Source: Acidobacteriota bacterium (lineage in GTDB: Bacteria > Acidobacteriota > Thermoanaerobaculia > Multivoradales > Multivoraceae). From it: a DNA stretch of 64,000 bases. Below the pieces are notes generated by a model. That model saw only the letters and a list, made by a program, of their open reading frames with translations, was not told the DNA's origin and searched no databases. Each line of letters begins with the position of its first letter. The first letter of the stretch is position 1. Position numbers and translations under genes: made by a program. The stretch lies in the NCBI GenBank assembly GCA_029263415.1, contig JAJCXN010000055.1:124001-188000 (forward strand). The letters run 5' to 3'. Below are positions 3,535-20,429 of this stretch, one piece after another.

Positions 3535-4440
3535 ATGCCCGAGCTTCCCGATGTCGACCTCTACGTGGAGGCAATCGCGGAGCGAACCCTCGGCGCGCAG
3601 TTTGTTCGCTTGAGGCTGGGCAGCCCGTTTGTCCTGCGCTCGGTGACGCCGATGGCAATTGACTTGGAAGGCAACAACGTTGTCGGCGTCAGTCGTCTGG
3701 GTAAGCGGGTTGTGGTCGAACTCGAGGGTTCGCTCTTCATGGTGATTCACCTGATGATCGCCGGTCGCTTTAGGTGGCTCGAACCAGGCAAAGAACCGTC
3801 ACTCAAGGTGAAGAACAACATCGCGGTGCTGGAGTTCAGCACGGGCTCGCTCTTGCTGACTGAGGCTGGCAGCAAGAAGCGTGCGTCGATCCATCTAGCC
3901 GGGTCGCTTAAAGCCTTGGAGGAGCACGAGCGCGGCGGGCTCGAAGTTCTCGATGCGACCTTCGAGGTCTTTCGTGAAGTGCTCCTGCGTCGCAATCACA
4001 CGGTGAAACGCAGCCTCACTGATCCGCGGATCTTGTCTGGCATCGGCAACGCGTACTCCGACGAAATCCTGCATCGCGCGAGGCTCTCTCCACTCACTTG
4101 GACAAGTCGGCTTAACGATGAAGAACTCAAGCGACTGTACGCCTCGATCCATGAGGTCTTGGTCGAGTGGCGCGATTTGCTGCGCGACAAGGCCAAGGGC
4201 GAGTTTCCAAGGAAAGTCACTGCCTTCCACCAAGAAATGTCAGTCCACGGCAAGTACAAGCAGCCATGTCCCGCCTGCGAGGCCCCCGTTCAACGGATTG
4301 TGTACGCCCAGAACGAGTGCAACTACTGCGTCAACTGCCAGACCAAGGGCAAGGTCTTGGCTGATCGCGCGCTGTCCAGGTTGCTTGGCAAAGATTGGCC
4401 TCGCACGCTCGAGGAACTCGAGGAGCGGCGACCGGGCTAG
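3535..4440 (+). CDS. Fpg/Nei family DNA glycosylase
   Basis: A 301-residue base-excision-repair glycosylase/AP lyase. It begins PELPDVD, giving the catalytic N-terminal proline (after Met removal) and the adjacent Glu of the family. The central helix-two-turns-helix reads 'DPRILSGIGNAYSDEIL', and a C-terminal zinc finger has Cys at about 245, 248, 265 and 268 (CPAC...CVNC). The finger tail differs from the classical 'GRSTFFCPxCQ' ending because about 30 further residues follow it, so it may belong to an Fpg-like side family rather than strict MutM. The ATG is 5 bases after the PH-domain gene stop. Acts in the cytoplasm on oxidised purines or pyrimidines (inferred from the family). Confidence 0.9.
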   Translation: MPELPDVDLYVEAIAERTLGAQFVRLRLGSPFVLRSVTPMAIDLEGNNVVGVSRLGKRVVVELEGSLFMVIHLMIAGRFRWLEPGKEPSLKVKNNIAVLEFSTGSLLLTEAGSKKRASIHLAGSLKALEEHERGGLEVLDATFEVFREVLLRRNHTVKRSLTDPRILSGIGNAYSDEILHRARLSPLTWTSRLNDEELKRLYASIHEVLVEWRDLLRDKAKGEFPRKVTAFHQEMSVHGKYKQPCPACEAPVQRIVYAQNECNYCVNCQTKGKVLADRALSRLLGKDWPRTLEELEERRPG

Positions 4441-4511
4441 TCGTCGCGCCCTGGGTTTCGGCGCGGCGATGGGTACCGGTGAGTGAGTTTGCGGTTTCTT
4501 TGCAGGGCTTC

Positions 4512-4540
4512 TTGCGCATATAGCAAAATCCAGATATAAG
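4512..4540 (+). promoter_or_regulatory. candidate sigma-70-type promoter for the DUF1800/DUF1501 pair
   Basis: TTGCGC (4512-4517) and TATAAG (4535-4540) are separated by 17 bases. A start near 4547 would leave a leader of about 180 bases before the DUF1800 ATG. The 285-base spacer 4441-4725 holds nothing else I recognise except the ribosome site GAGAGGGA just before 4726. Confidence 0.4.
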
Positions 4541-4725
4541 TAGGCATCTAGGTTGCAGTGCGGTTCCGATGAGATTCGATTGCTCTAGAGGCTCACGCTG
4601 AGCTGACCCCTCCGTCAGACCAGAGTGCGGCCGCCTAAGCCCCCAGAAGAAGAGCTCCGGACTGACGCAATCTGCGTTCTGATAGGCGCTCCTTCGTTTT
4701 TGACTTCGAGAGAGGGAAAGCAGAT

Positions 4726-6534
4726 ATGAGCCAGCCCGAAGCCTTCGTGGGATCGCTCGACGATGATGACCAGGGCAGTGAATTGCCGTTGTACGACACG
4801 CCCAGAGCGCAGTCGACGCTGACCGATCCCAATCGCTATGACGGCCTAGCTACGAGCGAAGAACGCGGCGCTCCGGACCTCTATGTGCTGGCGGTCAGCC
4901 GACTCGGCTACGGTCACAAGCACGGTCAGCGAGCAGAGTGGAATGCTCTTGGGGCCAACGAGCAAGAGCGCTGGGACAATTACTTGAAACAACAGCTCGA
5001 TCCAGACAACAACGACGGGGCGGATGCCTTTCCGGGCCACCCTGGCACGATCGATGACAGCGACTACACGACGCGCAAGGCTGCAGCTGGCTACCAGACC
5101 CTCGATCTCACCCTCCATGAGCTGTGGAGAGACTACGAACGCGATCTTCTCGGCGTCACTAGTTCGAACGATCCGCAAGAAGAGTGCGAACTCGATTGGT
5201 TCTTACGGTCGATCTATACCAAGCGCCAGCTCGAACAAACGATGACTGAGTTCTGGGTGGATCACTTCAACATCTACAGTGTTGAATCACCAACCGAGTC
5301 GATTTGGCCGGACTGGGTCAAGATGCTGAGTGGGCATGCGTTCGGCAATTTCCACAGCCTTCTGTATGACACCGCTCATCATCCGGCGATGCTTTACTAC
5401 CTTGATCAGTACACTAGCCAATTCGCGGGGCCGAACGAGAACTACGCTCGCGAGCTAGTGGAGCTCCATACACTGGGCGCTGAGAACTACCTCGGCGTGT
5501 TGCCGCAGGCTGCGGTGCCCAATACCAAGTGGGCCGCGTATTCGGCGCAGCTTGGCGGTCTCTTTCACCCGACGCTGGGCATTCCAGATGGATACGTCGA
5601 CAACGACATCTTTCAGGCCGCTGCCGCTTTGGCGGGTTGGACGTTCGAGGGTGCTCCGGGTACTGGGGCTGGTGAGACTGACGGCCCCACAGGCGGCGAG
5701 TACTTCTTCGAGACCGATTGGCACCCCAATACGGCACAGATGACGTGTCTGGGTTTCGGTGTGATCAACATTCAAAGCACCACGCCTCGCGCGCTGCGAG
5801 GGGATCGGGTGCTCGAGATGCTGGCCTATCACCCGGGGACGGCTCGCCACGTGTGCCGCAAGTTGGTGCGCAAGTTCGTCTCGGAGGCAGCGGCCGATCA
5901 AGACACACCCGGTTCGCTAGTCCACACCGCAGCTGACGTGTTCTTCACTGAGCGCAACAGCCCGGTGCAGATTCGCAAAGTGCTTGAGCACATTTTTGCT
6001 TCTACTGAATTTCTAAACTCGTTTGGTTCGAAGATCAAGCGTCCGTTCGAAGTGATCGTGAGTATGTTGCGGGCGACCAGAGCTCACTTCGATTTCTCCT
6101 TGGGGGGGGACGAAACTTCGAGCTTTCTCAGCCACTTCGGCCGAACTGGGCATCGTCCTTTTCGCTGGAGTCCTCCAGATGGATATCCCGACGTTCGAGG
6201 GAACTGGGAGACCGCTGCGCCTCGTGTAATGACCTGGCGGATGGGTCAGTGGTTTGCTGACACTCGAACCGACGCAGATAACCTCTTTATGCCGATCCGA
6301 ACCATCACGCCGGGGTCGGTGCCCCGCACGCCGAATGGTCTGGTGGACTACTGGCTGGACAGGATATTCCCTCAGGGCGTTTCGGCCTCCTACCGGGAGG
6401 AGATCGTCGACTTCATGGCCCAGGGATTCAACCCTGATACCACCCTTATCATCGAAGACAACAACTCCACCGAGTGGCGGCTGCAGATGATGATCGCCTT
6501 GATCATGGCAACCCCCGAATTCAGCGAGCGCTAG
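4726..6534 (+). CDS. DUF1800 family protein
   Basis: A 602-residue member of the DUF1800 family, recognisable by 'FWVDHFN' near residue 176, 'NYARELVELHTLG' near 237-249 and the C-terminal 'ATPEFSER'. These proteins are nearly always encoded directly before a DUF1501 protein, as here (11-base gap). The pair is thought to act in the cell envelope, but its biochemical role is not established. No clear signal peptide is visible: the N-terminus is acidic. A strong purine-rich ribosome site (GAGAGGGA) precedes the ATG. A probable promoter lies about 190 bases upstream. Confidence 0.88.
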   Translation: MSQPEAFVGSLDDDDQGSELPLYDTPRAQSTLTDPNRYDGLATSEERGAPDLYVLAVSRLGYGHKHGQRAEWNALGANEQERWDNYLKQQLDPDNNDGADAFPGHPGTIDDSDYTTRKAAAGYQTLDLTLHELWRDYERDLLGVTSSNDPQEECELDWFLRSIYTKRQLEQTMTEFWVDHFNIYSVESPTESIWPDWVKMLSGHAFGNFHSLLYDTAHHPAMLYYLDQYTSQFAGPNENYARELVELHTLGAENYLGVLPQAAVPNTKWAAYSAQLGGLFHPTLGIPDGYVDNDIFQAAAALAGWTFEGAPGTGAGETDGPTGGEYFFETDWHPNTAQMTCLGFGVINIQSTTPRALRGDRVLEMLAYHPGTARHVCRKLVRKFVSEAAADQDTPGSLVHTAADVFFTERNSPVQIRKVLEHIFASTEFLNSFGSKIKRPFEVIVSMLRATRAHFDFSLGGDETSSFLSHFGRTGHRPFRWSPPDGYPDVRGNWETAAPRVMTWRMGQWFADTRTDADNLFMPIRTITPGSVPRTPNGLVDYWLDRIFPQGVSASYREEIVDFMAQGFNPDTTLIIEDNNSTEWRLQMMIALIMATPEFSER

Positions 6535-6545
6535 GAGACACGCAT

Positions 6546-7988
6546 ATGGCTACAACACGACGCAAGTTCATTGGTGGTTGTTCTGCAGCGATCGCCGCGA
6601 TGGCAGGGTCCTCGAGGATAAGCAAGCTGACTTTTGGCGACCCCGGCAGTCTCAATGGCAACGTTCTTGTGAACATCTTCCTTCGCGGTGGTTGGGACTC
6701 GATGAACATCCTGATTCCTGCGGGCGGGGCGGATCGCGGTGAGTATGAAGCAGCGCGCCCTAGTCTCCAGATCGCGCTGCCAGGCGGCGCGGGCGCTGGT
6801 GATCCGGCGCTAGCTTTGACTGGCAGTGCCTCGCGCACCATTGCCCCAGGAATCCCGACGGTCAACAATGGCGGCGGTCTGTTCGTCCATCCACGGTTAA
6901 TGAACACTTTTGATGTCAACCGTCCGGGCGAGCTTTGGGACATCTGGACGCAGGGGAACCTGGCGTTTGTGCCTGCAGCGGGCCTCAGTCAGGTGTTGAC
7001 GCGCAGTCACTTTGATGCCCAGGAGATCATCGAACTCGGCACCGGCACGACCAGTGGTAGTGATGGCTGGCTGGCGCGGCACCTGTCGACCAATGGCTCT
7101 AATCTTGACCCCGAGGCGCTGATTCACGGTGCCGCAATCGGTTCGCAGGAACCGACGTCTTTGCTTGGTGCTCCGGGCACCGCTGGCTTTGGCGATATCA
7201 ATACCTTCAATCTGCAGGAGGGTTACTCCACCTGGCGCCCCGCAATGCGCACCGCATTGCGCAACGTGATTGAGGGTGGCGGGACTCTCAACCACCTTTC
7301 AGGTCTCGACTCGCTGGACGCGGTGGACATCATTGAAAGCGCAACCGGCGAGGACTACACGCCAGAACCGGGGGTCACGTACACGGGGAGCCTCGCCGAC
7401 AGCCTGGAATCGGTGGCGCAGATGGTCAAACTGGACCTCGGGCTGCAGGTCGCGACGATTGACTACGGTGGCTGGGACACCCACAACGGCCAGGGCGACA
7501 ACAGCGGCGGTGGGTTTGGGTCCACGCTTGAGTGGGTTCGCACGGCTTTAGCCAATTTCTACCTGGACCTCAACGGCTCGGGCTCTGACCCCTACATCGA
7601 CAAGGTCACCGTGGTTGTGCAAAGCGAGTTCGGTCGTCGATTGATAGAGAACAACGATCGCGGCACCGACCACGGCTACGGCAACATGATGATGGTCATG
7701 GGTGGCAAGGTGAACGGTGGTGTCTATGGCTCCTGGCCGGGCTTGCAGCCTGGCGACCTGGTGGACAACAACGACCTGCAGGTGACCACTGACTATCGCA
7801 AGGTCATGACTGAGATCTTGGTGCGCAGACTGTGCAACCCGAACATTGAAACAGTGTTCCCCAACTACCCGGCCGAGTATCAGTCGACCGGCGGCCCGTT
7901 GGGTATCGTCGAAGGCAACGACTTGCCGATCACGCCAGTGATTTTTCAGGATGGCTTCGAGTCAGGAAGCACAAACGCTTGGGGGTAG
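6546..7988 (+). CDS. DUF1501 family protein, Tat-type leader and DGFESG tail
   Basis: A 480-residue DUF1501 protein starting at the ATG after AGGAGA. It begins TTRRKFIGG, a twin-arginine-like signal followed by an Ala-rich hydrophobic stretch, so Tat export is likely. Family marks include 'VNIFLRGGWDSMN', 'TIDYGGWDTH', 'VVVQSEFGRR' and 'DHGYGNMMMVMGG'; the fold resembles the alkaline phosphatase/sulfatase superfamily (family knowledge). The last residues read IFQDGFESGSTNAWG, a short tail resembling a recurrent C-terminal motif of secreted proteins in some GC-rich Gram-negatives. Encoded 11 bases after its usual DUF1800 partner. Exact function unknown. Confidence 0.9.
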   Translation: MATTRRKFIGGCSAAIAAMAGSSRISKLTFGDPGSLNGNVLVNIFLRGGWDSMNILIPAGGADRGEYEAARPSLQIALPGGAGAGDPALALTGSASRTIAPGIPTVNNGGGLFVHPRLMNTFDVNRPGELWDIWTQGNLAFVPAAGLSQVLTRSHFDAQEIIELGTGTTSGSDGWLARHLSTNGSNLDPEALIHGAAIGSQEPTSLLGAPGTAGFGDINTFNLQEGYSTWRPAMRTALRNVIEGGGTLNHLSGLDSLDAVDIIESATGEDYTPEPGVTYTGSLADSLESVAQMVKLDLGLQVATIDYGGWDTHNGQGDNSGGGFGSTLEWVRTALANFYLDLNGSGSDPYIDKVTVVVQSEFGRRLIENNDRGTDHGYGNMMMVMGGKVNGGVYGSWPGLQPGDLVDNNDLQVTTDYRKVMTEILVRRLCNPNIETVFPNYPAEYQSTGGPLGIVEGNDLPITPVIFQDGFESGSTNAWG

Positions 7989-8073
7989 GCCTCTAGCCAC
8001 GGTTGTCGGTGAGGGAACCCAGTCGGTTTTTCTCCTCGGAATCAGGTGTGCGGGCACTGCTACGGCTAACGAT

Positions 8074-8096
8074 GGCCATCTTTGGTGGCCATCTTT
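8074..8096. repeat. short tandem duplication, 13-base unit
   Basis: GGCCATCTTT occurs at 8074-8083 and again at 8087-8096 with GGT between, so the unit is 13 bases. It lies in the 181-base spacer between the DUF1501 gene and the TatD gene. Confidence 0.85.
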
Positions 8097-8169
8097 CGCG
8101 GTCATCAGCGGCTCGGCAGCGGCCAATCGTTTTCCGGGATGGGCTGTGAGGCCGTGGTAATTTCCTCGG

Positions 8170-8940
8170 ATGCCAGTGCCTCTCATCGACACCCACACGC
8201 ATCTGGGCGACCCGGTCTTCGATGCTGATCGCGAGGCTGTCTTGCGCCGCGCTGCCGCCGCCGGAGTCTGTTCCGTGGTTGTGGTCACCGAAAGCCACGA
8301 CGAGATCGCGCGCAATCTTGCTCTGAGTGAGCGCCATCCAGAGTTTCGGCTGGCGTTTGGTCAGTATCCAACAAGGTTGGATCGAACCGAGGCGCGTCAG
8401 TTTGTTGAGAGCATTCGAGCACACCGAGAGCGCTTGGTCGCGATCGGAGAGGTTGGGCTTGACCGCTGGAAGGTACAGGAGGAAGACCAGCGCACGACCC
8501 AGCGCGAGCTGTTTTCTCAGTTCATCGATCTGGGCCTAGAGCTCGACTTGCCGCTCAACGTCCATTCGCGTTCGGCAGGATCCCACGCTATCGAGTTGCT
8601 GCTCCAACGCGGGGCACGGCGGGTGCAAATGCATGCCTTCGATGGAAAGCATTCAAAGGCCAAGGCTGCGGTTGAAGCTGGTTATTTCTTCTCGGTTAGC
8701 CCGTCGATTGTGCGGTCCAATCAACAACGCAAACTCGTCAATCTGCTGCCAATGGGCTGCCTGCTGCTCGAAACAGACAGCCCGGTGTTAGGTCCTTTGC
8801 GGGAGGAACGCAACGAACCGGCGAATGTCGCTGTTTCGCTCGGCGTGATTGCTGAACTGAAGGGCGTCTGTGTTGAAGAAGTGCGGGAACGCGTCTTTGA
8901 CAACACTGTGCGGCTCTACGGCGAGGCGATCCTCGGCTAG
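8170..8940 (+). CDS. TatD family metal-dependent hydrolase
   Basis: A 256-residue TatD-type amidohydrolase. Metal ligands are visible in order: DTHTHLGD (HxH) near residue 8, GEVGLDRW near residue 93, NVHSR near 128, MHAFDG near 154 and LLLETDSPVLG near 200. The family are Mg-dependent DNases or related hydrolases in the cytoplasm. 'FQY' and 'GLDRW' replace the more usual 'GLDYY', so substrate preference may differ. The gene overlaps the convergent acyl-CoA synthetase: the last four bases CTAG supply the stop codons of both genes on opposite strands. Confidence 0.9.
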   Translation: MPVPLIDTHTHLGDPVFDADREAVLRRAAAAGVCSVVVVTESHDEIARNLALSERHPEFRLAFGQYPTRLDRTEARQFVESIRAHRERLVAIGEVGLDRWKVQEEDQRTTQRELFSQFIDLGLELDLPLNVHSRSAGSHAIELLLQRGARRVQMHAFDGKHSKAKAAVEAGYFFSVSPSIVRSNQQRKLVNLLPMGCLLLETDSPVLGPLREERNEPANVAVSLGVIAELKGVCVEEVRERVFDNTVRLYGEAILG

Positions 8941-10992: not shown

Positions 10993-13914
10993 GTGATCAT
11001 GGCGTCGCAAGCAGAGGAAAGTCCAACCCCGAAGTGGCTTAGAGTTCTTCGCTGGCTCGGTGTCGACCTGCGTCCGGAGGAGACCGGGCTACTTGGAGGT
11101 CTGTTCACCGCATCCTTCCTGCTCGGCGTTTTCCAATTCTCTAGCAAGGCGGTCCGCCAAGCGAGCTATATCGACCAGTTTGGTGCCGATCGCTTGCCGT
11201 ACGTCTATCTTCTGGTGGCGGTGAGCGCCTATCCGGTTCTGCGGTTGTACGGCCTCGTCGCTCAGAAGTGGTCGCCGCTAGCAGTGATCGCGGCCACGGT
11301 CGCAACGATCGTGGCGGGCCTGATCGCTTTCTGGTGGCTGATGGCAGATCCGCCGTCGTGGGTGCCGGTGGCTTACTACGTGTGGGTCGCGATCGCGACT
11401 GCTTTAGCTCTCACTCAACTGTGGAGCCTTGCTAGCACCTGCTTGGACGCCCGCCAGGCGCGTCGCTTGTTCGGACTGATCGGGGCGGGCAGTTTGCTGG
11501 GAGGTGTGGTCGGCGGCCAGGTCGCTAGCCTGTCGCGGAATGAACCGCGCAACGCGTTGTTGATCGCGGCGGCGATGCTGATGTTGATGGTCCTGGTGGT
11601 CTATCGCCTGGAGCGAGCTGGCAAGCAACGACGCTCGCTGAGCGGCGATAGCCTGGATGGAATAGCGACTCGTGCTCCTACGGATGAAGCGCGCCTTCGC
11701 GGTTTCGACCTGCTCAGCTCGTCCAACCATCTGAGGCTTATCGCGGGCATTCTCTTGATCACGGTGGTCGTCGCTCAGATCATCGATCTGCAGTTCAGTT
11801 GGGTGGTTGAAAGCACGCGAGACTCCTCTGCCGGCAGAGTGTCCGCGTTTGGCAATGTCTTTAGTCTGATGGGCTTGGCGGCGTTTATTTTCCAGCTGGT
11901 GCTGACGCCTAGGATCCACCGATCCTTCGGGGTGGGCCATGCGATGCGGGTTCTGCCGGCCTTCGTCACGCTAGGTTGTTTGGGGTTGCTGTTGGCGTCG
12001 AGCTTGGCACCCGCGCTCCTTGTGTTTGCCGTCGGTATGCTGCGCATTGGCGACAACGGGTTGCGCTACTCGCTCGATCACGTGACCCGCGAGCTGCTGT
12101 TCGTGCCGGTGCCAGCCAGCCAGCGGGTTGAAGCCAAGGGCTATGTCGACGTCTTTGTCCACCGGTTCGGCAAGGCCCTGGGGGCTGTGTTGTTGTTGAG
12201 TGTGACCTTTGGGTGGGTCACTCCGCTACAGCTCACTTGGGCTACTCTGCTTCTGGTCGCAGTGTGGTTTTGGCTGACGGCGGGCGCCAAGCGTCACTAC
12301 GTTGAAGCGCTCCGCACTGGGCTCACCGAGAGCGACGGTTTGAGCGGTGACGGCGATCAAGCCAGTGACATGGCGATCGACCCGAACGACGTCAACACAC
12401 TCGAGATTCTGGTCGAAGCCTTCGGTAGCGCTGACGCCTCGAAGGTGCTGGGAAGCCTGGAGCTGCTTCGCGCCCACGATCGCGCGAAGCTGGTGCCACC
12501 GCTCTTGCTCTACCATGACGATCGCAGGGTTCGCAAAGCCACGCTTGAGGTGATGATGGAGGCTGAGCGCAAGGACGCTTTGCCCTTGATCGAACGCTGT
12601 GTTGCTGACCCAGACGCGGAAGTTCGCGTGGCAGCAATCAGCGCGCTGGCATCCCTCTCCGGTCGACGCGGCCCTGAGCTCATGATTCGCCGCCTGGAGG
12701 ACGCCGAGCCTAGGGTTCGTGCAGCGGCCGCCCATTGCGTTCTGTCTCAAGGCGGACCTGAACAGGCTGAACAAGCCGAGGCGACTCTGCAAGAGCTTTT
12801 GAGCGACGGTGCTCCGGCCGTCAGGGTCGAGGCCGTTAAGGTGCTGGGCGATCTGCCCGAACCGCTCCTTCAACGGCAGATCGTGGCCGCACTGTTTGAT
12901 GCCGACAAGCAAGTGGTGAGGGCGATGATCATCTCGTTGCGCAACCGTGTTTCGGGCGCGAACTCTTCGCCGATGTATGTGCCGATCCTGATTTCCCTGC
13001 TGCGCGATCGCCGGCTTAAGCATGATGCACGCGAGACCCTGGTGGCATACGGACCGTCTGTCCTACCAGCGTTGTCGCACTTTCTCAACGACTCTAACGA
13101 GCAGATCTGGGTGCGTCGGGCACTGCCTAAAACGATCGCCCAGTTCAGTGGTCGAGGGGCTATTCCGGTCCTCTACGAGAGCCTGGAGTCGAGCGCTGAT
13201 CCTTTGCAACGAGCCAAGGTCATCGAGGCGTTGGTGGCGATGCCGGAGCATGCTTGTGATCAGCAACGCTTACATCGGTGCCTGCACGAGATGGCTCGGC
13301 AGTACTTTGAGAATCTACTGGCCCTGCACAGCTTGAGTGCGGGGGCCATCTCGTTGAAGGGAACGCACCTTGAATGGAACGGCGACAGGGTTGGTCAGGC
13401 TGAAGCTCTGCTGCGTCGCGAGTCCCACTTGCCACTCGCGCTTCGATTGTTGGCTGAGGAGCGTGAGAGTTTGCTCTCAAACATCACAGGCCTGATCAAG
13501 ATTCTGCTGCCCGGCGTGGAGCTCAACAACGAGCGCACGGAGCGGATGGAGGAGCAGGAGCGCCGACGTTCGTCGAGTCATGCAGTGGAGTATCTCGACA
13601 ACGTCCTGGACGGTCGTTTGCGCGACGAACTGCTGTTGGTGCTCGACGACATTCCCTTAGATCGTCGACTGAAGTCGGCGCGGGCTTTGTTTAACGTCCC
13701 ACTGAGAAGCCAAGAGGGCGCGCTGAAGTGGCTGTTGAGCCGCTCAAACGGTCATGAAATGGAGCGATGGTTGGCGGCTGCGGCAGCATACTGGGTGGGG
13801 CACGAGAAGATTGAATCGCTGATGCCTTTGGTTGCGCGGCTTGCTGCTCAAGATGGTCGTGGACTGGTGCAAGAGACCGCCGAGCTATTCGTCAGTGGCA
13901 AAGCGGTCAAGTAA
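10993..13914 (+). CDS. nucleotide-translocase (Npt)-like membrane carrier with HEAT-repeat C-terminus
   Basis: A 973-residue protein. Residues 1-430 contain about 12 hydrophobic segments and resemble ATP/ADP translocase (NTT/Npt) or MFS-like carriers: for example 'VFQFSSKAVRQASYIDQFG' early and 'LRYSLDHVTRELLFVP' and 'VHRFGKALGA' near 350-395. Residues about 460-730 are helical HEAT-like repeats ('DPDAEVRVAAISALASL', 'AEPRVRAAAAHCVLS', 'APAVRVEAVKVLGDL'), followed by more helices to the end. In the family such carriers exchange nucleotides or related solutes across the inner membrane; substrate here is unknown. The start is GTG at 10993 or the ATG two codons later. The cyclic-nucleotide-binding gene follows after 33 bases and is probably co-transcribed. 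Confidence 0.7.
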   Translation: MIMASQAEESPTPKWLRVLRWLGVDLRPEETGLLGGLFTASFLLGVFQFSSKAVRQASYIDQFGADRLPYVYLLVAVSAYPVLRLYGLVAQKWSPLAVIAATVATIVAGLIAFWWLMADPPSWVPVAYYVWVAIATALALTQLWSLASTCLDARQARRLFGLIGAGSLLGGVVGGQVASLSRNEPRNALLIAAAMLMLMVLVVYRLERAGKQRRSLSGDSLDGIATRAPTDEARLRGFDLLSSSNHLRLIAGILLITVVVAQIIDLQFSWVVESTRDSSAGRVSAFGNVFSLMGLAAFIFQLVLTPRIHRSFGVGHAMRVLPAFVTLGCLGLLLASSLAPALLVFAVGMLRIGDNGLRYSLDHVTRELLFVPVPASQRVEAKGYVDVFVHRFGKALGAVLLLSVTFGWVTPLQLTWATLLLVAVWFWLTAGAKRHYVEALRTGLTESDGLSGDGDQASDMAIDPNDVNTLEILVEAFGSADASKVLGSLELLRAHDRAKLVPPLLLYHDDRRVRKATLEVMMEAERKDALPLIERCVADPDAEVRVAAISALASLSGRRGPELMIRRLEDAEPRVRAAAAHCVLSQGGPEQAEQAEATLQELLSDGAPAVRVEAVKVLGDLPEPLLQRQIVAALFDADKQVVRAMIISLRNRVSGANSSPMYVPILISLLRDRRLKHDARETLVAYGPSVLPALSHFLNDSNEQIWVRRALPKTIAQFSGRGAIPVLYESLESSADPLQRAKVIEALVAMPEHACDQQRLHRCLHEMARQYFENLLALHSLSAGAISLKGTHLEWNGDRVGQAEALLRRESHLPLALRLLAEERESLLSNITGLIKILLPGVELNNERTERMEEQERRRSSSHAVEYLDNVLDGRLRDELLLVLDDIPLDRRLKSARALFNVPLRSQEGALKWLLSRSNGHEMERWLAAAAAYWVGHEKIESLMPLVARLAAQDGRGLVQETAELFVSGKAVK

Positions 13915-13947: not shown

Positions 13948-14430
13948 TTGACTACGCCCCGCATGTCTCGCATCGAAATGGTGATGCACTTGCAGTCGGT
14001 GGATCTCTTTCGATCGTGTGCTGCAACTGAAGCTGTACGGTTGGCACAGATCGCCGAGCTAGTCGAGTTTGCTGAGGGTGAGACCGTCTACCGGCCCAGC
14101 GAGCCGGCGACCAGACTCTACAGCGTGGTCAAAGGGCAAGTCTTGGTCGAAGGTGACCATGAGTTTCGCCTGGAAGTTGGTCCTCAACAAGCTTTTGGGG
14201 TACCTGAGGTGTTGAGCGGTCGGCAGCGACGGACTAGCGCTCAAGCGCGGACAGCAACCCTCGCTCTCGCCATTGCCGGGGAGGACTTTTTTGATCTGTT
14301 GTCGAACAACATCAACATCGTCAAAGCTCTGTTTAGAGAAGTGTTAGACGAGTCCAGTCCGGTCGGTGCGCCGGATCAACAGCAGGTGTTGGGTCTTGTG
14401 CAGACTGCTGCAAGAGTGCAGCAGTCTTGA
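13948..14430 (+). CDS. stand-alone cyclic-nucleotide-binding-domain protein
   Basis: A 160-residue Crp-type cNMP-binding fold without a DNA-binding domain: 'LQSVDLFRSC', 'FAEGETVYRPSEPATRLYSVVKGQV' (in two strands) and 'GVPEVLSG' follow the usual beta-roll order. The classical ligand motif GE.....R(S/T)A is degenerate, so nucleotide binding is uncertain. The start is TTG, placed 9 bases after AGGAA; an ATG five codons later is the alternative. It sits 33 bases after the carrier gene, and in related systems (as I recall) the carrier, HEAT repeats and this domain can occur in one chain, so it may gate the carrier. Its last codons form a perfect hairpin. Confidence 0.75.
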   Translation: MTTPRMSRIEMVMHLQSVDLFRSCAATEAVRLAQIAELVEFAEGETVYRPSEPATRLYSVVKGQVLVEGDHEFRLEVGPQQAFGVPEVLSGRQRRTSAQARTATLALAIAGEDFFDLLSNNINIVKALFREVLDESSPVGAPDQQQVLGLVQTAARVQQS

Positions 14431-14464: not shown

Positions 14465-16648
14465 ATGTTGCTCCAATCCATCCCTTTATGTCGGCCATCG
14501 CGCTTATCCCTGCGGGTGCCGTTGCGGAAGCCGTCCTTGCGGACGCTCTTGTCGCACAAATCTCGTCTAGGGTTGCTCCTGTTGGGAGCCCTGGTTGCCG
14601 TTTCTTCAGCGAGTGCAGGCGCCGGTCGGCTGGTGGCCATTGCGGACGTGCATGGTGCTTATGACGAGCTGGTGGCGCTGCTTCAAGAGGCGTCCTTGAT
14701 TGATGAGGAAATGGACTGGATTGGTGGGCAAACCACTCTTGTTCAAACAGGCGACTTCTTGGATCGTGGCGCGGATGTTCGCAAGGTGATGGATCTCCTG
14801 CGGGCGCTACAAGATCAAGCAGCCGTTGCGGGTGGTGAGGTGGTGGTTCTGCTCGGCAATCACGAGGCCATGAACTTGCTCGGCTTTCGTAGTGACATCA
14901 GTGATGAGGCATACGCATCCTTTGCAAACGAGGACTCAGTCAAGCGCCAGTCGGCGGGGAGTCGTAAGTTTGGCAAGTGGATCAGGCAGCGCGCAAAGCT
15001 GAAGAAGGAGCGAATCCCCAACTATGGGCAGGCTGCAGCCGCCGCCTTTGTCTCAGACCATCCGCTGGGCTATTTTGAGTACGCAGATGCAATGCGGCCA
15101 GAGGGCGAGTACGGTGGTTGGCTTCGGTCTCTGCCGATGGTGGCAAAGCGCGGCAGGATCGCGTTTCTCCACGGCGGGATCTCGCCGACCTACACCGGTT
15201 GGTCGATTGAAGAACTCAACCAGCGAATGTCGGAAGAGATCGCATTGCTTGATTCCTGCCGGGAGAGCCTGCTCAATGAGGGAGTGATCTTCGAGACATC
15301 TGATCCCAACGAGATGGTGGCTGAGGGGTTAGCCGAGATCGAGGTGTTGACCAAGCGGCTGAAGCGTGCGTCGCCGCCGGAGCGTGAGCAAGTCGAAGAG
15401 CAGCTGCGAGTTCTCCAAGGGTGTGTGGGCTATGAAGACTGGTTCTTGGTAAAGAGCGAGAGCCCCATCTGGTACCGCGGCTACGCAAGGCTGGAGGGTG
15501 CAGAAGCTTTGCAGGTGGTCACCGGAGCGTTGAAGGGTCTGGGCGTTGATCGATTTGTGGTTGGGCACACCCCTCAAAAGTCGATGAGGGTCGATCGCCG
15601 TTTGGATGGTCGCTTGTTTCTCCTGGACACCGGCATGCTCACTAGCGTCTACAAGGGGCGGCCATCAGCGCTCGAGTTCATTGGCGACCAGGTGACTGCG
15701 ATCTACCTCAACGAGCGAGAAGTGCTAGAGCAGGGCCCTGGGGGCGAGGCATCAGCCGTTGAGCGCAGGGTCCAGGCGGTGCCTGGCCTTGCTGGATCGC
15801 AGTTTGCCGGGGGCTTGGGCTCGTTCGCCTCTTTGGTGTTGGGAGTGGCGGCTGCCAACCCACCCGCGGTCACCAGCGGTGTTGACTATCGCGACGCACA
15901 GGGCGATCCGCTGCCCTTTGCCTCTGAGGCCGATCTGATCGCCTTTTTGAGCCGTGGGCGGATCGAAGTCGGTGCAAGGACCGACACCGGAGTCAACCGG
16001 CCGCTAAAGGCGACCGTAACCGCCGATGGAATCACCATCGATGCCGTGTTCCGGTCGGTTGACAAGATGGAGCGCCGAGTCCGAACCAAGTCAGGCAAGA
16101 CTCTGGCCTATTTGCGCGACACCTTTCGCTTTGAACCTGCGGCATATCAATTGAGTGCGCTGCTTGGGCTCAACCGGGTGCCGGTCGCGGTGCTGCGCAC
16201 GGTCGATGGCAAGCGCGGATCGTTGCAGATCTGGATGCACGGCATGGTCGATGAGGAAGGCCGTTTGGAGCGCGGTCTTCGCCCGAAAGACACGTTGGGC
16301 TGGCGAGAACAAGTAGCAGAACAAAAGTTGTTCGATCGGCTGTTGGGCAACGTCGATCGTAATCAAGGCAACTTGCTGATCAATCTTGAGACCGAGAAGG
16401 TTTGGTTGATCGATCACACACGCGCCTTCGCGGAGATGGCGACTCCAGAAGATTTGCAACGGGTCACTCGCTGTCGTCGTACGTTCTATGAGGCGTTGGT
16501 GAACACCTCAGAAGCTGAGGTGCGCAGCACCATGGCGCCCTACCTGCTGAACGGCGAAGTCGACGCGTTGTGGTCACGATGGGACATGATCGCTAAGCGC
16601 CTGCGGAGTTTGTTGGAAGAGCACGGCGCGGACGTCGTTTTCTTCTAG
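14465..16648 (+). CDS. exported PPP-family phosphatase fused to a kinase-like (HipA/PI3K/FAM20-like) domain
   Basis: A 727-residue two-domain protein. Residues 1-35 are basic, 36-52 hydrophobic and end in an Ala/Gly/Ser stretch, so it is probably exported or anchored. Residues 55-420 are a Shewanella-like PPP phosphatase with metal ligands in DVHGAYDE (D61, H63), GDFLDRG (D97) and GNHEAMN (N132, H133), then FLHGGISPTY and VVGHTPQ. Residues about 490-715 resemble atypical kinases: FDRLLGNVDRNQGNLL (candidate catalytic D631, N636) and LIDHTRAF (candidate metal-binding D650), the order found in HipA, PI3K-like and FAM20-like folds. A strong ribosome site GGAGG precedes the ATG. The phosphatase call is firm; kinase activity is inferred and unproven. 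Confidence 0.78.
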   Translation: MLLQSIPLCRPSRLSLRVPLRKPSLRTLLSHKSRLGLLLLGALVAVSSASAGAGRLVAIADVHGAYDELVALLQEASLIDEEMDWIGGQTTLVQTGDFLDRGADVRKVMDLLRALQDQAAVAGGEVVVLLGNHEAMNLLGFRSDISDEAYASFANEDSVKRQSAGSRKFGKWIRQRAKLKKERIPNYGQAAAAAFVSDHPLGYFEYADAMRPEGEYGGWLRSLPMVAKRGRIAFLHGGISPTYTGWSIEELNQRMSEEIALLDSCRESLLNEGVIFETSDPNEMVAEGLAEIEVLTKRLKRASPPEREQVEEQLRVLQGCVGYEDWFLVKSESPIWYRGYARLEGAEALQVVTGALKGLGVDRFVVGHTPQKSMRVDRRLDGRLFLLDTGMLTSVYKGRPSALEFIGDQVTAIYLNEREVLEQGPGGEASAVERRVQAVPGLAGSQFAGGLGSFASLVLGVAAANPPAVTSGVDYRDAQGDPLPFASEADLIAFLSRGRIEVGARTDTGVNRPLKATVTADGITIDAVFRSVDKMERRVRTKSGKTLAYLRDTFRFEPAAYQLSALLGLNRVPVAVLRTVDGKRGSLQIWMHGMVDEEGRLERGLRPKDTLGWREQVAEQKLFDRLLGNVDRNQGNLLINLETEKVWLIDHTRAFAEMATPEDLQRVTRCRRTFYEALVNTSEAEVRSTMAPYLLNGEVDALWSRWDMIAKRLRSLLEEHGADVVFF

Positions 16649-16761: not shown

Positions 16762-19233
16762 GTGGCGCAAGCGAACTACGAACAACTCGGCGTCTTCTAT
16801 CTAGGCAAAACGGTCGACGATGACGGTGATCGGACCGACGATCTGCTGCTCTACGATTCAAAGGACCTGACCACGCACGCCTTAGTGGTTGGCATGACCG
16901 GGAGTGGTAAGACTGGCCTGTCCGTGGGCCTCCTCGAGGAGGCTGCCATCGACGGGCTGCCAGCGATCGTCATTGATCCAAAGGGCGATCTGGGAAATTT
17001 GTTACTGACCTTCCCAGATCTCGCGCCGAGCGATTTTGAACCGTGGGTAGATCCGGCAGAGGCGACTCGCGCAGGCAAGACGCCCGATGAATTCGCCAAG
17101 TTCACCTCAGAGCTATGGCGCACCGGTCTGGACAAGTGGCAACAAGATGGCGATCGTATCCGGCGCTTTCGCGAGTCGACCGACCTGACCATCTACACCC
17201 CAGGTGCCTCCGCGGGCATGCCGCTGTCGGTCATGAAGTCGTTCGACGCTCCAGCTGAAGCTGTTCGCGAGGATGCTGATGCCTTGCGCGAGCGAGTCGA
17301 CGGTGCCACCTCGGGGCTACTCGCACTGCTCGGTATCGAAGCGGACCCAGTGCGCAGCCGTGAATACATCCTGCTGGCGAATCTTCTTCAGCGCGCTTGG
17401 TCCGAAGGTAAAGACCTGGACCTCGGTGCGTTGATTCAGGACATCCAGAAACCGCCGTTCGAGCGTCTTGGAGTGATCGATTTGGAGACGTTCTATCCAG
17501 CTAAGGATCGCATCAAGCTTGCGTTGCAGTTGAACGGCCTGCTGGCTTCACCCGGATTCAGCGCTTGGTTAGATGGCGAGCCGCTCGATATCCAGAGCCT
17601 GTTGTATCGGCCCGACGGTAGGCCGCGGATCTCCATTATCTCGATCGCTCACCTGTCGGACTCTGAACGCATGTTCGTTGTCACGCTGCTCTTGAACGAG
17701 ATGGTTGCGTGGATGCGATCGCAGAGCGGGACCAGCAGTCTGCGTGCGTTGCTCTACATGGACGAAATCTACGGGTACTTTCCACCGTCGAAGAACCCGC
17801 CGTCGAAGACGCCGATGTTGACCTTGCTCAAGCAGGCGCGCGCCTTTGGACTCGGTTGCGTGCTGGCAACCCAAAACCCGGTCGACCTGGACTACAAGGG
17901 GCTGTCCAACTGCGGCAGTTGGTTCATTGGCCGACTGCAAACTGAGCAGGACAAGAACCGGATTCTGGACGGACTCGAGAGCGCTGCCGGAGCGGCCGGA
18001 TCGTCGGTGGATCGCGCCGAGCTTTCTCGGCGTTTGGGATCACTCGGCAAGAGAGTGTTTCTGCTCAACAATGTGCACGAAGACGGGCCTCAGATCTTCA
18101 ACACGCGTTGGGTACTGTCGTATCTGCGGGGGCCGCTCATGCGTTCGCAGATTGCGACCCTCATGGCGAGCAAGAAGAAGGCACTAACTGCCGATGGCGC
18201 TGTCGGTACGGCAGGCGGGGCTGGTCCATCAGCGATTGCAGCAGCGACGCCGCAAGAGGTGGAGCAAGCTAGCGATGTTCGGAAGGGGAAACGGCCGGTA
18301 CTCGGCGAGGGTGTCGAGGAGCTGTTCGCGCTGGTCCTTGAAGAGCCGAACGACGGAGAACGTGTTCTTTATCGCCCGCGGGTTCTCGCCCAGGCACAGG
18401 TGCACTTCAAGCGCACCACCCTAGGTGTTGACCTTTGGCAAGACGTCGCGCTTGTGACTGAGCCCGAGGGGTCGTCGATATCCTGGGACGGTGCCGGCAT
18501 CGCGATCGGAGAGGCCGGCCCAACTACGCGCAAGCGGCCGATGGGAGGCGCCCGCTATGCCGAGTTACCCGCAGTTGCGCAGCGGGCTCAGGCTTACCGT
18601 AAGGCCGCGACGGGTCTCAAGGCTCATCTCTATCGAGAGCATCGCTTGTGCTTGTTCTCCTACCCTGCGGGCAAGCTGAACTCAGAGGCCGGTGAAAGCG
18701 AATCGGACTTCAGGTTGCGCGTGCAACAAGAGCGCGCCGAACAGCGCGATCTCGCCGTTGAGAAGCTCCGCACTGCCTTCGCTAGGAAGATGACGGCTTT
18801 AGAGAAGCGGATTGATACTGCCGCAGAGCGCGTCGATCGCGAGAAGTCACAACTGCGTGATCGCAAACTGCAAACCGCGATTTCCTTCGGGTCGTCCCTG
18901 CTCGGTGCCGTGATGGGCCGGAAAAAGTTCAGCTCGAGCACCCGCACCGGCATGGCCACCGCCTTGCGTAACGTGGGCAGAAGCCGTCGAGAGGGCGACG
19001 ATGTGTCGCGAGCGAACGAGAAGCTCGAGGATCTTCTCGAGGAGAAAGGCGCGTTGGAAGCTCAGTTCGAAGTGGCTGCGGACGAAGTTAAGGACGAGTT
19101 CTCAGGCCAACAAGTGGAGCTGGTGGAAGTGGAGATTCCGATGCTCAAGACCGATCTCTCGGTGAAGACCATAGCTCTTCTGTGGACACCTTGGGCCATC
19201 GATTCGGATGGCATCGTCCGTCCGCTGTCTTAA
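16762..19233 (+). CDS. HerA-like (DUF87-type) ATPase
   Basis: An 823-residue P-loop ATPase. Walker A GMTGSGKTG gives K50 and T51; 'VIDPKGDLGNL' follows at about 73-83, as in HerA/VirB4/FtsK-like pumps, and Walker B LLYMDE has D334 and E335, then 'QARAFGLGCVLATQNPVDLDYKGLSNCG' (described in parts) as the sensor region. After residue 490 comes an Ala-rich linker and a unique C-terminal half with a long charged coiled coil (about 640-770). It probably uses ATP to move DNA or protein; the exact role is unknown. The start is GTG, 7 bases after GGAGG. It stands alone, with no NurA-type nuclease beside it. Confidence 0.85.
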   Translation: MAQANYEQLGVFYLGKTVDDDGDRTDDLLLYDSKDLTTHALVVGMTGSGKTGLSVGLLEEAAIDGLPAIVIDPKGDLGNLLLTFPDLAPSDFEPWVDPAEATRAGKTPDEFAKFTSELWRTGLDKWQQDGDRIRRFRESTDLTIYTPGASAGMPLSVMKSFDAPAEAVREDADALRERVDGATSGLLALLGIEADPVRSREYILLANLLQRAWSEGKDLDLGALIQDIQKPPFERLGVIDLETFYPAKDRIKLALQLNGLLASPGFSAWLDGEPLDIQSLLYRPDGRPRISIISIAHLSDSERMFVVTLLLNEMVAWMRSQSGTSSLRALLYMDEIYGYFPPSKNPPSKTPMLTLLKQARAFGLGCVLATQNPVDLDYKGLSNCGSWFIGRLQTEQDKNRILDGLESAAGAAGSSVDRAELSRRLGSLGKRVFLLNNVHEDGPQIFNTRWVLSYLRGPLMRSQIATLMASKKKALTADGAVGTAGGAGPSAIAAATPQEVEQASDVRKGKRPVLGEGVEELFALVLEEPNDGERVLYRPRVLAQAQVHFKRTTLGVDLWQDVALVTEPEGSSISWDGAGIAIGEAGPTTRKRPMGGARYAELPAVAQRAQAYRKAATGLKAHLYREHRLCLFSYPAGKLNSEAGESESDFRLRVQQERAEQRDLAVEKLRTAFARKMTALEKRIDTAAERVDREKSQLRDRKLQTAISFGSSLLGAVMGRKKFSSSTRTGMATALRNVGRSRREGDDVSRANEKLEDLLEEKGALEAQFEVAADEVKDEFSGQQVELVEVEIPMLKTDLSVKTIALLWTPWAIDSDGIVRPLS

Positions 19234-19556: not shown

Positions 19557-20429
19557 ATGAGAGTACCGAGTATCTTTCTCCTGATTGCCTTGGGGACGAC
19601 TGGCACTGCCGTCGCTCAAGACATCGAGGTGATGGCAGAACAAGTGCCTTGCCTGCTGGTGCAAGAGAATGCAGTTGTGCGCGCGAAGGTTGAGGACAAC
19701 GCACCTGACTCGCGAGTGCGCCTCTACTTTAGGCGTCTTCATGAAGAAGTCGAAGACTTCTACTGGGTGGAGATGAATAGCCAAGGCAGTGGCGAGTATT
19801 GGGGAGTTCTCCCGAAACCCGATGCAGAGGTTCTCGAACGCCGTGACTTGGAGCGTATCGAAGAAGACATCCGGGAGCGCTGGGCTCGCTGGTGGCGCCA
19901 GAAGGAACTCCTGGAAGACCGAGATCCCAACGATGACCTCGATCAGGAGACCATCGAAGAGCGCGCCCAGGTTGGGCGGCTTGAGCCGCGCAACTGGCTT
20001 GAGAGCCTGAACGACGAGTCCTTGGAGCAGTGGTTAGAGAGCTTGGACTACGAACCAACTGAGTACTATGCGGCGGTGTACGACGGCTACGGCCAACGTC
20101 TTGCCAAGGGCCCAATGCAGGTCACGCAGGTGCGCGACGAGTGCTCGACCAACCTGACTCCGGCAGAGGCTGGCTTGGCCGATAATCTCACGGTTGGCGA
20201 GACCGCTGCCTGGCAGGCTGGAAAGCAGGTCTTTCATTGGCTCTGTGACGGAGTTATCTCGCGCATAGATCCGTCGGGCGTCTACCGCGGAGACTCAATC
20301 TGTCGGGCGTGTGTGGTGGCTTGGTGGCAGAAGAAGGAGTTCTTACTGCCGTTGGCGGCAGGTGTGGCGGGTGCCGGGGTTATCGTCGTTGATGATGATC
20401 CTCCGGTGTCCGTTTCGATTCCGAACTAA
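19557..20429 (+). CDS. secreted, acidic protein with C-terminal membrane segment (unknown)
   Basis: A 290-residue protein I do not recognise. It has a signal peptide (MRVPSIFLLIALGTTGTAVA, cleavage before Q). The mature part is rich in Glu, Arg and Trp ('ERRDLERIEEDIRERW', 'WWRQKELLEDRD'), with a likely beta region at 50-85. Cys residues at about 197, 241, 256 and 259 could form disulfides. Near the C-terminus a Gly/Ala/Val segment (about 262-278) is followed by DDDPPVSVSIPN, an acidic Pro/Ser tail like those of some envelope proteins in GC-rich Gram-negatives. It is a single-gene unit, closed by a strong terminator whose stem begins in the last codons. Confidence 0.7.
   Translation: MRVPSIFLLIALGTTGTAVAQDIEVMAEQVPCLLVQENAVVRAKVEDNAPDSRVRLYFRRLHEEVEDFYWVEMNSQGSGEYWGVLPKPDAEVLERRDLERIEEDIRERWARWWRQKELLEDRDPNDDLDQETIEERAQVGRLEPRNWLESLNDESLEQWLESLDYEPTEYYAAVYDGYGQRLAKGPMQVTQVRDECSTNLTPAEAGLADNLTVGETAAWQAGKQVFHWLCDGVISRIDPSGVYRGDSICRACVVAWWQKKEFLLPLAAGVAGAGVIVVDDDPPVSVSIPN

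Follow-up and report, generated by a model that had tools for sequence, protein, structure and literature searches.

A predicted exported phosphatase-kinase fusion encoded beside an NTT-HEAT transporter gene in Acidobacteriota

How could a kinase work outside the bacterial cytoplasm, where ATP is thought to be scarce? To our knowledge, there is no general answer to this question. It is raised by one gene in a 64,000-nucleotide stretch of contig JAJCXN010000055.1 (the window) from the 6.9-Mb genome of an Acidobacteriota bacterium (assembly GCA_029263415.1). An earlier note, made from the sequence of the window alone, described the gene product as a PPP phosphatase fused to a kinase-like domain, apparently exported, and pointed to periplasmic ATP supply as a problem. 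The open reading frame (14465-16648, plus strand) is complete, starts with ATG and encodes 727 amino acids; its coordinates and length are as the note had them, and all eight residues that it had named are in place. A Shine-Dalgarno-like stretch, AAGGAGGG, ends 8 nucleotides before the ATG. The gene is the third in a same-strand run, in which a gene for an NTT transporter (TLC ATP/ADP transporter family) fused to HEAT repeats comes first and a gene for a protein with a cyclic-nucleotide-binding domain (cNBD) second, with intergenic gaps of 33 and 34 bp. The NTT-HEAT gene, two places upstream of the fusion, is a candidate answer to the question of periplasmic ATP supply.

The phosphatase half (residues 55-370) matches the Metallophos family (PF00149) with an E-value of 1.3e-13, at 52.2 bits against a cut-off of 21.5. 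In a search of the Protein Data Bank (PDB), residues 51-140 matched the cold-active Shewanella phosphatase (1v73/2z72; E-value 1.1e-22), and among solved structures ApaH came far behind (2.6e-4). We assign this half to Shewanella-like PPP phosphatases by its nearest solved structure, not by subfamily signature motifs. In an alignment of 17 fused proteins, including that of the window, the 16 rows that span the metal and catalytic residues show no change in them; H236, H368 and D388 are kept in 17/17, and the motif glycines vary only as one G64A and one G237A. Thus, the PF00149 match and the intact motifs bear out a PPP phosphatase with D61, H63, D97, N132 and H133 as metal residues. The window protein shares these motifs with 1v73/2z72 and differs from them by its additional C-terminal kinase domain.

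The earlier note had proposed a kinase-like fold for the C-terminal half and had suggested structure prediction, a fold search and profile searches against HipA, CotH, FAM20, PI4K-like and PPP families. The AlphaFold2 model of this domain, built on an 88-row alignment, has a predicted local distance difference test score (pLDDT) of 94.7 and a predicted template modelling score (pTM) of 0.91. The top Foldseek rows for the model were PI4KII and Fam20 (about 1e-6). When chains were re-aligned by VIA-align, hydra Fam20 with a sugar scored highest (5xoo; Z 19.9, root-mean-square deviation 3.7, 234 residues), with hFam20C close to it (5yh3_C; Z 19.2, deviation 3.3, 236 residues), and after Fam20 came PI4KII (Z 17.8), CtkA (15.5), HipA (3dnv; 10.7) and CotH (5jda; 10.5). 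Rows within Z 1 of each other count as tied, and absence of a family from these listings is not read as exclusion. An 88-member profile of the domain searched against the PDB gave Fam20A (1.6e-14), Fam20C (2.5e-11), hydra Fam20 (1.2e-10) and PI4K2A (6.4e-4). Weak 14-3-3 matches in the first PDB search (E-values 0.36-0.96) are attributed to chance, none being listed at E-values up to 1 with the 88-member profile. On the basis of the model, the C-terminal half almost certainly has a protein-kinase-like fold, as the note had anticipated, and it is nearest to Fam20 and PI4KII.

Curated kinase families share the motif order with the window domain, and all score it below their cut-offs. TIGR03843 (SCO1664) covers the whole domain (E-value 2.7e-11; 43.3 bits against 172.4), and the other scores are 21.2 bits against 27 for HipA_2 (PF20613), 21.6 against 27.1 for PI3_PI4_kinase (PF00454) and 13.3 against 26.8 for the Fam20C family (PF06702), which 51 of the 88 members match at E-values up to 0.1. 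The closest known proteins are the Fam20 kinases (Fam20A/B/C), animal Golgi kinases of the secretory pathway, with fold matches at Z 17.8-19.9 and profile matches of 1e-8 to 1e-14. The window domain differs from them in being shorter (about 260 residues versus 349-438 in solved Fam20 chains), in its link to a PPP phosphatase and in falling below the Pfam threshold. AlphaFold2 folds both domains of the fusion; since pTM of the two-domain model is 0.59 and the linker is disordered, we do not read their relative orientation as a sign that either active site feeds the other.

Is the kinase half likely to be active? HMMER alignments, anchored on D478 of Fam20C and D430 of Fam20A (residues named in a passage of PMC5413348), place D650 of the window protein on D478 of Fam20C, D631 on D458, D552 on E306, R530 on K285 and E557 on E311. 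The window domain therefore has the Fam20 acidic set: the catalytic Asp (D631), the DFG-type Asp (D650) and a metal-binding residue (D552; Glu in Fam20C). In Fam20A, D552 falls on Q258; according to an extract of PMC7948968, Fam20C needs a Glu that coordinates Mn for catalysis, and the pseudokinase Fam20A has a Gln in its place, with Q258 named. The earlier note had put weight on the conservation of D631, N636 and D650, and these are kept in 35/37, 34/37 and 37/37 domains collected by BLAST. The note had named two outcomes that would refute it, a C-terminal half that lacks a kinase fold and loss of these residues in homologues, and neither occurred. In a wider set of 139 distinct domains (kinase stretches of 200 to 331 residues), the counts are 129, 127 and 139, the last biased upward because D650 was part of the pattern used in the scan that yielded many of these domains; position 552 is D or E in 134. 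As the pattern also included H651 and R653, the conservation of D650, H651 and R653 in alignment A2 was set aside as evidence and the BLAST set preferred; counts from the 139 domains at these positions share the bias. Before alignments A1 and A2 were made, 4 diverged rows of 37 and 2 rows of 89, respectively, were left out.

The basic residues are less regular. Position 530, the site of the Fam20C Lys, is R in 79, K in 38, H in 16 and another residue in 6 of the 139 domains: Arg in the window protein, His in a subgroup, R or H in most close relatives and K in distant members. Residues 530 and 557 pair as K/R with E/D in 115 domains and as H/Q/G with N/Q in 20, with 4 exceptions, which is consistent with a Lys-Glu-type salt bridge. 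We dropped this covariation as decisive proof, as it reflects few events: on the tree, position 530 changes between basic and non-basic 6 times, with 3 independent pairs on supported branches, and the sign test is not significant. Of the two phosphate-binding Lys of Fam20, K271 (named in a passage of PMC5413348) and K285 (from the present numbering), the second is Arg in the window protein. A candidate equivalent of the first is K515, which lies opposite a Lys of hydra Fam20 in the alignment and is K/R in 111/139 domains.

On the one hand, the replacement of the Lys by R or H in most close relatives counts against catalysis, and it fits a different reading, in which the C-terminal domain is a pseudokinase, or carries out other chemistry (AMPylation, nucleotide sensing), and regulates or scaffolds the phosphatase, perhaps sensing nucleotide moved by the NTT. 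The same reading would accommodate the degenerate fused copies at three loci (L032, L035 and L042) and the copies with D631C or D631S beside PPP genes at six others (L147, L148, L157, L163, L164 and L165), and it has a precedent in Fam20A, a pseudokinase activator of Fam20C (as described in part of PMC7948968). On the other hand, the window protein keeps D552, D631, N636 and D650, has a second basic residue in K515 and retains acidic 557 opposite R530, and a pure sensor would not obviously need the D631 and acidic 552 that nearly all of the 139 domains have. We consider a pseudokinase unlikely, if far from negligible, and judge that the kinase half is probably an active phosphotransferase.

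The altered copies have features of their own. At L042, a 1,403-residue open frame (4155-8363), possibly a merged frame, ends in a diverged PPP::kinase with D631 and N636 altered. Kinase-like copies that have C or S in place of D631, and D in place of N636, are each found beside a separate PPP gene (L147 8963-9778, L148 7974-8819, L157 3101-3994, L163 5175-5999, L164 425-1267 and L165 7735-8526), and other kinase copies in these loci retain D631; by analogy, a pseudokinase-kinase arrangement like that of Fam20A and Fam20C is possible. The window genome encodes two further kinase-fold proteins with signal-like N-termini (L039, G000:C56:276556-277320; L040, G000:C54:8642-9313); positions 530 and 557 read R-E in one of them and K-E in the other, more distant one.

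The fold and residues also bear on the acceptor. The kinase half would most likely transfer phosphate to periplasmic or surface proteins, and possibly to glycans. That it acts on a glycan or lipid instead of protein, as Fam20B does on xylose and PI4K on lipid, is suggested by the sugar-bound hydra Fam20 at the top of the structural matches and by the high score of PI4KII; however, the protein kinase Fam20C is tied with the former, and the closest solved relative of the PPP partner was deposited as a protein-tyrosine phosphatase. We regard a non-protein acceptor as rather unlikely, slightly more so than a pseudokinase.

Where the protein acts was suggested in the earlier note by its hydrophobic N-terminus. 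To call signal peptides we used a simple home-made rule rather than SignalP, leaving out frames whose domain starts before residue 28. Among distinct sequences, the rule was positive for 80/104 separate kinases, 25/28 fusions, 18/24 separate PPP proteins and 0/13 cNBD proteins (with repeats counted, 90/116, 36/39, 21/27 and 0/19); among controls, it was positive for 0/194 interior stretches and 5.8% of shuffles. The signal-like N-termini of most relatives and the clean controls support export, and we conclude that the fusion protein is very probably exported. About 34 residues precede the hydrophobic segment of the window protein, which is unusually long and is what speaks for a cytoplasmic protein, or an assembly or gene-call artefact, with no signal peptide at the N-terminus. 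This is very improbable given the good ribosome-site match, the comparison just described, the presence of the same fusion in many assemblies and the folding of both domains by AlphaFold2.

A contig scan with the single protein found no relatives, and a profile scan then found 153; the named loci are the best 80 of these. The survey of genomes proposed in the earlier note shows that the fusion recurs in many of them and that the two halves also occur as separate, neighbouring genes. For example, in G043 (L057) the phosphatase and the kinase are encoded by adjacent separate genes, with four stops between them and a signal-like N-terminus on each. On the kinase tree, the fused or separate state switches at least 14 times, although some of these switches may be frame or contig breaks. 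Arrangements were read from the named loci and from 20 loci picked for a kinase and an NTT near each other on one contig (true of 19; L166 has an NTT-HEAT alone); these 20 show arrangement and not frequency. The order NTT-HEAT, cNBD, PPP::kinase is found at L111, L113, L115, L116, L120, L129 and L136; PPP::kinase is followed by NTT-HEAT at L081, L106 and L117; and a kinase adjoins an NTT at L063, L094, L118 and L125. The large clusters L147 and L148 each have four kinases and one PPP together with two NTT-HEATs and a separate NTT. Both within Acidobacteriota and beyond, genes for PPP, kinase and NTT are found close together in varying order, either fused or apart. An NTT or HEAT is within reach in 13 of the 16 fused loci among the best 80 of 153 relatives (about 5 kb away at L080). 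The three exceptions are L067, which begins at a contig edge, L119, whose contig is 3.3 kb long, and L092, where 13 kb contain none. In most of the named loci, the kinase is separate and the stretch covered contains no NTT. Since adjacency persists through reordering, we argue for a functional link between the fusion and the NTT, which we regard as highly likely. At L018, L020, L021 and L025, an NTT is not near, yet a cNBD gene lies directly upstream of the PPP gene.

Co-occurrence across genomes was scored for two larger sets. Among 71 relatives of the window genome searched with both queries, a TLC/NTT match was found in 24 of 25 genomes with the kinase versus 2 of 46 others; within the window's own family, the counts are 3/3 versus 0/21. 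In 18 of the 24 relatives, no more than 10 kb separates an NTT from a PPP and/or kinase match. In a sample of 396 Acidobacteriota genomes, where a strong kinase match means an E-value below 1e-20 and up to six kinase or three NTT candidates were scored per genome, an NTT is found, among the matches listed and not lower ones, in 77/77 genomes with a strong kinase match versus 47/319 others (Fisher 1.5e-49, a value that ignores relatedness; the 71 relatives partly overlap with this sample). Weaker kinase matches, eight in all, were left aside; an NTT is present in two of these genomes and missing from the other six, among them G275. Of 150 listed kinases, 27 are within 10 kb of a listed NTT, where about one is expected by a crude estimate that assumes 4.5 Mb per genome. 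In the 16-genome group of the Latescibacterota locus L106, an NTT is found in 3/3 kinase genomes versus 0/13 others. Seven genomes reached via more distant loci include six with an NTT; these are not independent, because four recur in other groups and G455 has a contig match in common with G180 of the Acidobacteriota sample. The kinase goes with the NTT; the reverse does not hold.

The fusion, its domain identities by sequence and predicted fold, and the genomic linkage are established here, and a model can be built on them as follows; location, catalysis, direction and substrate of transport, and the phospho-acceptor are its inferred parts. The fusion protein, placed outside the cytoplasm by its signal peptide and the comparison with relatives, would carry a kinase half that phosphorylates its acceptors and a PPP half that, judging from its intact metal and catalytic motifs, would take phosphate off and reverse the kinase's marks. 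The NTT-HEAT protein would most likely move the kinase's nucleotide across the inner membrane, for example ATP outward or ATP in exchange for ADP. More speculatively, the cNBD protein may be a cytoplasmic regulator that reads a cyclic nucleotide and acts on the HEAT part. We regard such an extracytoplasmic module for reversible phosphorylation, with nucleotide handled by the NTT, as an evenly balanced proposition, and give the same weight to the narrower claim that the NTT supplies nucleotide outward.

Several observations weigh against this proposal. The kinase genome G068 has no NTT match (its assembly is 77% complete), nor do G275, with a weaker kinase match of 3.6e-10, and G450, one of the seven genomes from distant loci. 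The NTT is not close in 6 of the 24 relatives (G028, G036, G043, G049, G064 and G067). Conversely, 47 Acidobacteriota genomes have an NTT without a strong kinase match, and a set of 195 genomes around a deltaproteobacterial locus includes 89 with an NTT and only one (G452) with a strong kinase match. Since NTTs are widespread without the kinase, serving it cannot be their sole role; in 12 hand-picked regions around NTTs of genomes without a strong kinase, no adjoining PPP or kinase genes were found (own profiles, E-value 1e-3). The genome samples are, in addition, phylogenetically correlated.

The transporter itself bears on the proposal in both directions. The NTT family profile matches the solved transporters CpNPT1 of C. 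pneumoniae (9j3n; 5.4e-45) and AtNTT1 (9j3j; 8.7e-39), covering most of the transporter. In AtNTT1, K155, E245, E385 and K527 are called crucial (in part of PMC10654386; mutants in PMC3306366), and an extract of PMC3306366 connects K155 with the binding of ADP and K527 with that of ATP. The window NTT has Y, A, D and K in these positions: two of the four essential residues, K155 and E245, are missing, so that it does not conform to the AtNTT1 type, and the retained K527 speaks for the proposal. Among 44 NTT rows from kinase-bearing genomes, K155 and E245 are kept in none (0/44 each), the E385 column is D/E in 34, and the K527 column has K in 23 rows but D in another 20. As a check of the columns, K, E, E and K were found there in four canonical NTTs; 12 of 55 NTT rows, several of them copies of kept rows, were left out of this alignment (A4). 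Eleven NTT-HEATs from genomes without a strong kinase have Y at K155 in 10, E at E245 in 8, D at E385 in 10 and K at K527 in 1. Most window-type NTT-HEATs have K in the K527 column and those of another cluster type have D; in NTT-HEATs from genomes without a strong kinase match, other letters prevail there. With K155 and E245 absent, ATP/ADP exchange is not assured. Because K155 and K527 are tied to ADP and ATP binding (in the part of PMC3306366 cited above), these NTTs may transport nucleotides in an altered mode, and they may also have lost ATP transport.

The direction of transport could also be the opposite. Characterized NTTs import nucleotides in intracellular parasites and plastids (as stated in a section of PMC5381601), and ApaH-type hydrolases are relatives of PPP (sub-threshold match to PRK00166, 7e-10); the NTT-HEAT might then import or salvage environmental nucleotides, with the exported PPP and kinase-fold proteins merely processing external phosphate compounds and being clustered with it on that account. 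However, a kinase would be unexpected in a salvage route, and among solved structures the PPP half is nearer to the Shewanella phosphatase (1e-22) than to ApaH. We consider salvage improbable and prefer the phosphorylation module.

NTT-HEAT fusions followed by a cNBD have already been described (PMC5381601, Major et al. 2017); the section of that paper at hand reports NTT-HEAT proteins in many free-living bacteria and calls the functions of the fusions unknown. The window set agrees with this description, as PF03219 and HEAT repeats are on one chain with a cNBD gene directly behind, and differs from the sets in that section in being adjoined by a predicted exported phosphatase-kinase. The new element is this neighborhood. 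We found no earlier account of such a module in the open-licence PMC literature, which is weak evidence of absence. We tentatively suggest, at somewhat less than even confidence, that this is a bacterial version of the secretory-pathway kinases of eukaryotes, in the form of a reversible-phosphorylation system in the periplasm or at the surface. In it, a Fam20-like kinase and a PPP phosphatase, often on one chain, would obtain their nucleotide from a partner NTT-HEAT. Like Fam20, the kinase would act in an extracytoplasmic compartment. If this is true, the uncharacterized NTT-HEAT proteins of free-living bacteria gain a first role and secreted-kinase biology reaches from animals to bacteria. 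Because a family of predicted exported Fam20-like kinases depends on an NTT in an almost one-way manner across genomes, a few genes suffice to test both how a kinase could work outside the cytoplasm and what NTT-HEATs do.

Table 1. Coordinates of the fusion gene, its parts and the two genes upstream, in window positions.
Feature	Position	Strand	Basis
PPP phosphatase::Fam20/HipA-like kinase fusion, 727 aa, apparently exported	14465..16648	+	ORF; PF00149 1.3e-13; AlphaFold2 kinase fold and fold search
Signal-peptide-like N-terminus, residues 1-52, ending LLLLGALVAVSSASAGA	14465..14620	+	sequence; comparison with relatives
Shewanella-like PPP domain, residues 55-370; D61, H63, D97, N132, H133, H236, H368	14627..15574	+	Pfam; PDB 1v73/2z72; motif conservation
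Disordered interdomain linker, about residues 427-472	15743..15880	+	pLDDT <50, model residues 376-421
Kinase domain, residues 473-727; K515, R530, D552, E557, D631, N636, D650	15881..16645	+	alignments; AlphaFold2; fold search
NTT (TLC ATP/ADP transporter family) fused to HEAT repeats	10993..13914	+	PF03219 4.8e-11; HEAT_2 4.2e-21
cNBD protein; start codon uncertain, TTG 13948 listed	13948..14430	+	PF00027 1.3e-12

Downstream of the fusion gene, after 113 bp, is a gene for a HerA/DUF87-type ATPase (16762-19233), and the same follower is found at L136 and L067, which are family members. Further along, at 19557-20429, a frame encodes a 290-residue protein with no Pfam match at E-values up to 0.01; its N-terminus is signal-like, and it has a hydrophobic stretch towards the C-terminus.

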